Below, in pieces: positions 30,811-33,946 of a stretch of 41,037 bases of DNA (position 1 is its first letter; each line of letters starts with the position of its first letter). This DNA comes from Candidatus Saccharimonadota bacterium (GTDB taxonomy: Bacteria > Patescibacteriota > Saccharimonadia > Saccharimonadales > Saccharimonadaceae). The stretch is taken from positions 1 through 41,037 of the forward strand of contig JAFRCO010000004.1 of NCBI GenBank assembly GCA_017404325.1. The letters are read 5' to 3'. Both the position numbers and the translations under genes were made by a program. Below the pieces are notes generated by a model, which was given only the letters and a program-made list of their open reading frames with translations, made no database searches and had not been told where the DNA came from.

Positions 30811-32703
30811 TTATTTGTCTACAACTTCGCCTTCGACTGGTTCGTCGTTTTTTTTGCCATCGAATTTTTTGTCTTCGTCCTTTTTAGTTTCTTCAGAAGC
30901 TTGTTGATACATTTTTGCGCCAATTGGCATGATTTTATCATTTAATTCCTTGGTGGCTTCTTCAAATTTATCTTTGTCGGACTTATCATCGTTTAAGACT
31001 TTTTTAGCTTCTTCGACAGCTTTCTTGATCGTATCTTTGTCTTCGTCGCTAATCTTGTCTTTGTATTCATCTGGCATTTTTTCGGCTTGATAAATGGTGT
31101 TTTCGAGACGATTCTTCGCATCGACAGAATCTTTTTTCTTCTTGTCTTCGTCAGCATGAGCTTCGGCTTCTTTACGAGCTTTTTCGATATCATCTTTGCT
31201 CATGTTGCCAGAGTTTTGAATAGTAATGGATTGTTCTTTCCCGGTACCTTTATCTTTCGCGGTAACATTTAAAATACCGTTAGCATCGAGATTAAAGGTA
31301 ACTTCGATTTGCGGAACGCCACGCGGAGCTGGAGCGATACCGTCTAAGATGAAGCGACCAAGCGATTTATTATCAGCAGCGAATTCACGTTCACCTTGAA
31401 GGACGTGGATTTCAACTTGTGGTTGATTATCAGACGCAGTAGAGAAGATTTCGGACTTCGAAGTTGGAATCGTAGTATTACGATCGATTAATGGAGTTCT
31501 GACGCCACCCATGGTTTCGATACCGAGAGTTAACGGAGTAACATCGAGAAGGAGGATATCCTTCACATCGCCTTGGAGGACGCCACCTTGAATTGCGGCG
31601 CCAACGGCGACGACTTCGTCAGGGTTAACGCCTTGCATCGGATCTTTGCCGAAGATAGATTTAACCTTTTCGACGACCGCTGGCATACGGGTCATACCAC
31701 CGACCATGACAACCTCATCAATATCTTTCGTTTCAAGCTTTGCATCTTTAAGAGCTTTTTTAACCGGTCCTTCGAGACGATCAAGAAGTTCGGAGACTAG
31801 CTCTTCGAGTTTTGCACGGGTTAAAGTGTGTTCGAAATGTTTCGGACCATCAGCATCAGCTGACAAGAACGGAAGGTTGATGTCGGTAGAAGTTGAGCTA
31901 GAAAGTTCCTTCTTAGCTTTCTCTGCTTCGTCCTTCACACGTTGCATAGCGGCGGCATCGCCTTTAATATCAATGCCAGATTCCTTCTTAAACTCATCGA
32001 CTAGGTAGTTAACGATGATATTGTCGAAGTCTTCACCACCGAGGTGAGTATCACCGTTTGTAGACATCACTTCGAAGACGCCATCGCCGAGTTCGAGAAT
32101 CGAGACATCGAAGGTACCACCACCGAGATCGAAGACAACAATTTTTTCGTCTTTCTTAGATTCAAGGCCATAGGCGAGGGCAGCAGCGGTAGGCTCGTTG
32201 ATGATTCTTTTTACTTCAAGACCAGCGATTTTACCAGCATCTTTAGTTGCTTGACGTTGGGAATCATCGAAATAAGCCGGAACGGTAATAATAGCTTCAG
32301 TGACTGGTTCGCCAAGGAAGGCTTCAGCGTCAGCTTTGATTTTAGAAAGAACCATTGCGGAAATTTCTTCTGGCGTATATTCTTTACCATCCATTTCAAC
32401 GGCGACGCCTTGGCCTTTTTTAACGATTTTGTATGGACTGATTTCAAGGTCGTGTTGGACTTCCTTATCATTAAATTTACGGCCGATTAAACGTTTAATG
32501 CCGTAAATCGTGTTTTTCGGGTTAGTGACTCTTTGTCTTTGGGCGACTTTACCGACTAGGCGCTCGCCCTTCTTAGTTACAGCAACGACTGATGGGGTCG
32601 TACGATCTCCTTCAGCATTGGTGATAACCTCAGGTTTACCAGCAACCATATAAGCGAAGGCACTGTTAGTTGTACCGAGATCAATACCAATAATTTTACT
32701 CAT
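30811..32703 (-). CDS. dnaK: Chaperone protein DnaK (Hsp70)
   Basis: The protein has 630 residues. The nucleotide-binding domain begins [16 protein letters not shown] and contains [14 protein letters not shown] and [14 protein letters not shown]; the substrate-binding domain (about 380-530) has [17 protein letters not shown]; a lysine/glutamate-rich lid and tail end [13 protein letters not shown]-driven protein folding with DnaJ and GrpE. Transcribed alone here: no grpE, dnaJ or hrcA next to it. Two CIRCE operators flank its promoter. AGGA lies just before the ATG. Confidence 0.98.
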
Positions 32704-32730: not shown

Positions 32731-32757
32731 TTGGCACTCGTATGTGATGAGTGCTAA
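32731..32757 (-). promoter_or_regulatory. CIRCE operator 1 of dnaK (in the 5' leader)
   Basis: TTGGCACTC-N9-GAGTGCTAA read on plus: one mismatch to the CIRCE consensus. It lies just downstream of the predicted dnaK start point near 32760. Confidence 0.92.
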
Positions 32758-32766
32758 TATGACTCT

Positions 32767-32795
32767 ATTGTAGCGCACTAGCACTCATATGTCAA
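32767..32795 (-). promoter_or_regulatory. dnaK promoter
   Basis: On minus, TTGACA (32795-32790), a 17-base spacer and TACAAT (32772-32767): a near-consensus sigma-70/A promoter, the best in the window. Confidence 0.88.
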
Positions 32796-32804
32796 TAGTG
32801 CTAA
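32778..32804 (-). promoter_or_regulatory. CIRCE operator 2 of dnaK (over the -35 box)
   Basis: CTAGCACTC-N9-TAGTGCTAA read on plus: one mismatch in each half-site. It covers the -35 hexamer and most of the spacer, so HrcA binding would exclude polymerase. Confidence 0.88.
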
Positions 32805-32807
32805 ACG

Positions 32808-32917
32808 TCACAAAATAGCACTTTTCGGGTACGGGTCGCTTTCGCCCGTCGTCACGGGGAAAGCGCCCTCAAGCTCGGTCGTAACCTCCGCATGCCCCTC
32901 AAAGTACTATTTTGTGA
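32808..32917. repeat. GC-rich structured element with 17-base inverted ends
   Basis: The ends (32808-32824 and 32901-32917) are inverted repeats matching at 16 of 17 positions. Inside, 32833-32868 forms a stem of 15 base pairs with two one-base bulges and loop CGTC. The interior is far richer in G+C than its surroundings. It does not match the conserved loops of SRP RNA, tmRNA or RNase P RNA. It may be a miniature inverted-repeat element or a small structured RNA. Its right end runs into the ruvB -10 box. Confidence 0.6.
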
Positions 32918-32923
32918 TATAAT
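32915..32923 (+). promoter_or_regulatory. Extended -10 (TGATATAAT) of ruvB, leaderless
   Basis: TATAAT at 32918-32923 ends six bases before the ATG at 32930. The TGA extension is the last three bases of the inverted-repeat element. Confidence 0.72.
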
Positions 32924-32929
32924 CCAGAT

Positions 32930-33946
32930 ATGACGATAGAGAGGTTAGTGGAGCCGACAGCGGCGGACGATAAAGAGGAGGAGCGGATTGAAATTTCGCT
33001 TCGGCCGACGACTTTTTCGGAATATATCGGGCAGGAACATCTGAAAAATAATCTTAAACTCGCGATAGAAGCGGTAAAAAAGCGAAATGATGGCTCGACT
33101 TTAGACCATATATTATTATACGGTCCTCCTGGACTTGGTAAAACAACGATGGCGGGAGTGATTGCACATGAGCTAGGCGCTTCCTTACGAGTTACTTCGG
33201 GGCCGGCGATTGAACGGGCGGGGGATCTCGCATCGATTTTAACGAATTTAAAAGATGGTGATATCTTATTTATTGATGAAATTCATAGATTACGTCGGGC
33301 AGTTGAAGAAGTCTTATATTCGGCGATGGAAGATTATAAACTCGATATTGTAATCGGGAAGGGACCGGCGGCGAGGTCAGTAAGGTTAGACTTGCCACAT
33401 TTTACGGTAATTGGAGCGACGACACGAACAGGTTCTTTAGCTGGGCCGCTTCGTGATCGGTTCGGAATTATTCATCGGTTAGAATATTATAAAGAGCCGG
33501 AAATTGAGCAAATTATCAATAGAACAGCGGGGATTTTAAAGACGGAGATTCGTCCGGAGGCAACGGAGTTACTTGCGACGAGATCTAGGCTTACGCCAAG
33601 AATTGCTAACCGGATTTTTAAGCGAGTAAGAGATTTTGCGGATGTGAATGGGGATGGGATTATTGATACGAAAGTCGCGGAAGATGCACTTTCTTTGATG
33701 GAAATTGATGAGCTAGGGTTAGATCCAGCGGATCGAAATATGCTTCGGTTGATGTATGAGAACTACGGAGAGAGGCCGGTAGGACTAACGACAATTGCGG
33801 CTTTAACTGGAGATGAAGCGACAACAATCGAAGATTTTTATGAACCATACTTACTACAAATGGGACTTCTAGCACGGACGCCAAAGGGAAGGGTGGTGAC
33901 GGAAAAGGGGCGGAAGCATTTACAAGACAAGGGGAATGTGATATAA
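32930..33946 (+). CDS. ruvB: Holliday junction branch-migration ATPase RuvB
   Basis: The protein has 338 residues, family length. The N-terminus has [16 protein letters not shown]; Walker A is GPPGLGKTT, Walker [10 protein letters not shown], sensor 1 [10 protein letters not shown] with the arginine finger PLRDRFG; the C-terminal winged helix ends [16 protein letters not shown]. It drives branch migration with RuvA during recombination. ruvA and ruvC are not adjacent. Leaderless, and its stop codon lies within the next gene's -10 box. Confidence 0.98.

Follow-up and report, generated by a model that had tools for sequence, protein, structure and literature searches.

What occupies the short gap from which dnaK (30,811–32,703, minus strand) and ruvB (32,930–33,946, plus strand) diverge? 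The initial annotation offered a miniature inverted-repeat element whose insertion rebuilt the ruvB promoter, a REP-like repeat, or a small structured RNA. Sequence, matches and folding delimit a palindromic element at positions 32,808–32,917 of the window, the 41,037-nucleotide stretch analysed here; it consists of an arm, a core of two hairpins and a second arm, all given on the plus strand. The 17-bp terminal inverted repeats, 32,808–32,824 (TCACAAAATAGCACTTT) and 32,901–32,917 (AAAGTACTATTTTGTGA), pair with exactly one mismatch, as annotated. The left arm (32,808–32,829) is locus-specific sequence: 17 nt base-paired to the right arm, and an inner CGGG side, which pairs with the CCC end of the core. 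The right arm (32,901–32,917) ends in an outer TGA that forms the host's extended −10 (TGA-TATAAT). Between them lies the conserved core (32,830–32,900), defined by covariance model and alignment as the 71 model positions common to all copies. Its 36-nt hairpin P2 (32,833–32,868) is a 15-bp stem with two bulges that covaries between copies, and folding places the loop CGTC at 32,850–32,853, again as described. The short second hairpin P3 (32,877–32,886; GGT-CGTA-ACC), identified by folding and alignment, is also part of the conserved core. The interior is G+C-rich, with a G+C fraction of 0.66 in the core and 0.55 in the element compared with 0.40 in the window.

The fold of the element is far more stable than that of shuffled sequence (MFE z = −7.1 on the plus strand and −8.0 on the minus strand; 0 of 200 shuffles as good). 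It is the sole long interrupted palindrome in the window, which contains four inverted repeats of at least 14 bp against 0–1 per simulated sequence. No Rfam family matches it at the gathering score, which only tRNAs reach in the window, in keeping with the annotation's statement that it resembled no familiar RNA family. Two CIRCE-like (HrcA) operators lie upstream of dnaK at 32,733–32,806, the second directly preceding the element.

In a BLASTN search with the 110 bases, the own genome (766 kb) gave four copies. Among 60 related genomes, 19 also contained copies, and these 19 all belong to one genus. The RuvB neighbours belong to the Candidatus Nanosyncoccus clade of Saccharibacteria from rumen and gut. 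A covariance model of the 71-position core, R1, was built from 31 copies and matches the window copy with 91.4 bits (E 8e-19). With it, 89 of 100 genomes of the genus proved to contain copies, 38 at most in any one and 8 in the own genome; the genomes are species representatives, mostly metagenome assemblies, and many copies share one site and are non-independent. Pairing is conserved, with double changes in 11 of 18 core pairs (63 cells, compared with 20.6 in shuffles). The outcome that the initial annotation had set against its reading, a single copy with no conserved pairing, is therefore not what was found: the copies are many and the stem covaries. In samples of the order and phylum, the few R1 copies outside the genus were in one sister genus only, and there was no match beyond these two genera of one family; in the phylum sample the model matched 1 of 209 genera, the own genus. 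A strict 29-nt motif, being too specific, gave no match in a scan of genome contigs. Cores of the same genome show weak concerted evolution overall (0.81 within versus 0.80 between genomes). In the sister genus the core occurs as close, intergenic inverted pairs, upstream of a gene's −10 or in the groES-groEL gap (L158, 1,583–1,654/1,859–1,930; L160, 1,502–1,570/1,729–1,805; also L159 and L161).

Outside the core, conservation drops to chance-like levels, and the arms vary from locus to locus and, at a single locus, from species to species. In each copy, nevertheless, the approximately 20 nt of host sequence on either side of the core are mutually complementary. The pairing score of a copy's own arms was 17.2, compared with 6.3 for arms of different copies; for orthologous copies at one gene site the values were 14.1 and 7.3 (p = 6e-18). 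In the dnaK-ruvB gap of a relative (L048) the arms differ at several positions, nearly all of them changed on both sides. Two pairs of copies, each pair within one genome, have identical cores (L182/L183 and L198/L199; 0 of 71 differences), whereas their arms are identical at only 7–8 of 21 positions, a likeness no greater than chance. The idea that the arms are host-independent element sequence with a strong consensus was ruled out, the column majority being mostly 0.3–0.6. Weak similarity of the inner arms does recur in some copies (CTCTCTCGG...CCCTCGAG), which leaves core and arm without a sharp boundary. The length of the palindrome is rather fixed, with a median of 119 nt and quartiles of 115–123 nt. 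At gatB, two copies (L176 and L196) have homologous arms around oppositely oriented cores, the single clear case of core inversion. General inversion of the core at shared sites was rejected: this was the one convincing pair, and mean arm similarity was barely above random.

Most sampled copies lie within genes. Two of the eight in the own genome lie between genes and six lie in frame inside genes (mnmA, rlmD-like, rluB-like, obgE, truB and tgt). Overall, 66 of the 113 distinct copies examined are in frame in long ORFs with conserved gene sequence flanking both sides, a copy being called in-gene if the frame stayed open for at least 45 codons both before and after it. Further host genes include lepA, uvrB, gatB, der, argS, alaS, ileS, pheT, ligA and topA, named from recognisable sequence rather than by family search. 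The in-gene copies occur in both orientations and in several frames, and no stop codons were found at the split truB, uvrB and mnmA matches (60–80 genomes each). Read from sequence, the core is stop-free in five of six frames, two of three sense and three of three antisense. We infer that the inserts in TruB, MnmA and LepA are translated as passengers, for example as the predicted peptide EVTTENEGASPVTTG. AlphaFold2 modelling of an insert-bearing argS protein gave a confident N-terminal domain in which insert residues 68–85 fall below pLDDT 50, as would be expected for a tolerated loop; the model derives from a shallow seven-sequence alignment and is mediocre overall (mean pLDDT 61). One argS gene (L065) carries three separate in-frame inserts relative to orthologs. 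In several congeners (L364, with lepA-N at 81–626 and lepA-C from 1,381; L365; L370) lepA (EF4) is split into two ORFs at the position that the palindromic element occupies in other species. The genes between the halves are unrelated (aquaporin-like, phosphoglycerate-mutase-like and dinB-like). Because these are ordinary genes, the large interruptions were ruled out as an autonomous version of the element, and no Rfam intron was found in them.

Empty and filled sites were compared between species, counting residues between fixed anchors; no empty/filled pair at strain level turned up. At truB, 17 empty alleles have 42–46 residues (one has 50) and five distinct filled alleles have 64–65; L207, the sixth filled allele, contains additional sequence. 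The corresponding values are 26 residues in three empty relatives versus 50 in the filled L059 at argS, 28–29 versus 52–57 at lepA, and 50 (one allele only) versus 72–77 at obgE. The net gain at these four genes, about 21–27 codons, is about the size of the core. The gap between dnaK and ruvB is empty in L038, L050 and L064; from GTGCTAA to TATAAT it measures 25–32 nt in L038 and L050 and 113 nt in the window, a gain of the core plus a little. Since the host usually gains about a core, and not a palindrome of about 119 nt, the arms must occupy host positions that have been turned into inverted repeats. Against a core-sized gain as the rule stand a larger gain at mnmA, about 30–37 codons, and perhaps one at uvrB (about 30 codons or more). 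Filled loci aligned across species showed no obvious direct repeat of the kind left by target-site duplication.

These comparisons bear on what moves. One alternative, which we regard as unlikely, is that the whole palindrome of about 119 bp is mobile with hypervariable arms, that its insertion deletes about 45–50 nt of host sequence, and that selection keeps the arms paired for mobility, the hairpin acting as a cruciform or in single-stranded DNA. The rather constant length, the weak consensus that the inner arms of some copies show and the strongly kept pairing would all fit. However, identical cores carry unrelated arms; the arms are thus not passed on together with the unit, and over generations they offer selection for mobility nothing to act on. 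At argS, moreover, removal of the 24-codon core restores exactly the ortholog length of 26 amino acids, and both arms encode ortholog-like residues. A mobile palindrome would also require a host deletion of equal length at every site.

Alternatively, the core might prefer to insert in the loop of a palindrome already present in the host, the arms being the target site. This would account for arms on host positions, and two sequences are of the expected kind: one empty truB allele (L214) has a short hairpin, and the gap upstream of ruvB in L043 (about 2,930–2,990) contains, at the orthologous position, a perfect core-less palindrome, CACAAGATGGTCAAT-GCTCAGGA-ATTGACCATCTTGTG. Empty alleles in general, however, are not palindromic beyond shuffled sequence, 17 at truB, 3 at argS, 15 at mnmA and 5 of 6 at lepA having no comparable hairpin, and such palindromes are otherwise nearly absent from the window. 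We consider this explanation improbable, and clearly more so than a mobile palindrome.

We therefore favour a different account, and think it likely that the element is a copy of a genus-specific, non-coding, selfish palindromic cassette whose core spreads and whose flanks are rewritten by template switching. The approximately 71-nt core would be the spreading unit, moved by an enzyme other than RAYT. Once inserted, its hairpin would cause template switching between the flanks at the replication fork, so that the reverse complement of one flank replaces the sequence of the other. Selection on the host would retain those rewrites that spare the conserved side, such as the GEI codons of truB or the −10 of ruvB. 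In-gene copies would survive because five of the six core frames are stop-free and because the insertion site is one at which the protein can accommodate a loop. According to published work, template switching between inverted repeats homogenises arms and inverts spacers, also in coding genes (PMC8604942), and creates perfect stems (PMC8794818). Rewriting of the flanks by such switching during replication is probable. The stricter version, that the core of about 71 nt alone is mobile and sculpts some 20 nt of host flank on each side into an inverted repeat, with proteins carrying the result, is put forward more tentatively, with the chances slightly against it. The main reason for caution is the rather fixed length of the palindrome, which is not obviously expected from open-ended template switching and suits a defined element or an enzyme footprint. 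A further point against the account is that no mobilising enzyme was found.

The pairing could in principle be maintained in RNA or in DNA. Pairing kept as mRNA should tolerate G·U more than A·C. On the mRNA strand of in-gene arms, mismatches comprised 21 G·T and 20 A·C, and in all outer arms 57 and 62, respectively. An apparent wobble asymmetry, with A·C above G·T, was traced to a fixed mismatch beside the core and disappeared when only outer arms were counted. As the two mismatches are equally frequent, the pairing is not kept at the mRNA level, and this result, together with arms that do not travel with the core, argues for mutational copying rather than selection on RNA.

The same data weigh on the proposal of a structured RNA or a cis-regulator of ruvB or dnaK (a riboregulator, promoter part or terminator). 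Such a role might be suspected from the very stable fold, the covariation of P2, with the double changes in core pairs described above, and a position between divergent promoters. Stem covariation need not imply RNA function, however. The element lies upstream of the ruvB −10 and is therefore outside the ruvB transcript, many relatives have no element between dnaK and ruvB, and copies are present in dozens of unrelated genes in both orientations. With neither a wobble excess nor an Rfam match, we regard a regulatory or RNA function as very improbable, the least probable of the alternatives, and the small structured RNA of the initial annotation is not upheld.

The ruvB −10, TATAAT (32,918–32,923), adjoins the right arm and is kept in element-free relatives. 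The right end of the element does abut it with the TGA of the extended −10, as had been noticed, but TGn-TATAAT is also present in element-free relatives (L038, L050 and L034), which contradicts the suggestion that insertion rebuilt the promoter. The left arm starts with the complement of the promoter's TGA. As judged from these sequences, the promoter is not made by the insertion; rather, the palindrome has incorporated the promoter's bases. With an extended −10 in place, it would seem that any −35 could be lost without harm. The dnaK-ruvB copy is probably a passenger whose spacer, behind such a promoter, is tolerant of inserts.

As to classification, the term miniature inverted-repeat or REP-like element applies in part: this is a palindromic repeat interspersed in many copies throughout the genus. 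With terminal inverted repeats that are not conserved from copy to copy, it is not a classical MITE. Nor is it a RAYT-dependent REP: Y1_Tnp, the RAYT transposase, was found in 0 of 12 carrier genomes, while control genomes were positive, and mobilisation by RAYT was ruled out on this ground. Its CGTC invites comparison with CGTC-tagged REPs, single hairpins of 20–40 nt with CGTC at one end and a CCA-like tail (PMC3733652). These too are palindromic, have no dedicated transposase and lie in part within genes (PMC3733652). The core hairpin of the element also carries CGTC, but here as the loop of an inner hairpin in a palindrome of about 119 nt.

The best reading is that the element works like the Rickettsia palindromic elements (RPE-1 to RPE-3 and others), to which it is likened here in architecture and insertion habit. 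Those elements are short (100–150 bp), genus-wide and in frame in housekeeping genes, and recur at the same ortholog sites in solvent-exposed protein regions (PMC10969869, PMC3767692). Common to both are the size (here a median of 119 nt), many copies across a genus (here 89 of 100 genomes), insertion into ORFs without loss of frame (here 66 of 113 distinct copies) and truB as a host gene. The element differs in its Saccharibacteria host, in locus-specific arms on host positions with only the core of about 71 nt shared, and in its two orientations, several frames and net gain of about 24 codons. Coding palindromes are also known from nematomorph mitochondria, as perfect repeats of up to 284 bp in which both arms encode conserved protein sequence, so that pairing coexists with coding; the abstract mentions no conserved mobile core, and the setting is animal mitochondria (PMC6649704). 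Template-switch mutations predict homogenised arms, inverted spacers and new perfect stems in coding DNA, as proposed here, but have been described as a mutational process with no tie to a spreading repeat (PMC8604942, PMC8794818).

To our knowledge, protein-coding palindromic elements have been described chiefly from Rickettsia and Wolbachia, and a search of open-access literature yielded none reported from Saccharibacteria or from elsewhere in the Patescibacteria. The present copies form a large cassette family in one of the most reduced bacterial lineages, mostly inside essential genes. A conserved core with host-derived, locus-specific and well-paired arms is a natural experiment on the origin and upkeep of DNA palindromes, and the old question of how such elements spread and persist in genes becomes testable by comparison of strains. 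If the proposed account is true, a selfish DNA cassette moulds the protein-coding sequence of its host into palindromes.

Several families of such cassettes seem to exist. The same architecture was seen with different cores in mnmA (L303), uvrB (L377), lepA (L358) and the dnaK-ruvB gap of another genome (L067). In L019, L032, L078 and L016 the arms share an outer module like GGCTCGCTTGCGGTCGACAG...CTGTCTTCCCGCTCGCC, an arrangement that looks as though the loop of one palindromic element had received a second.
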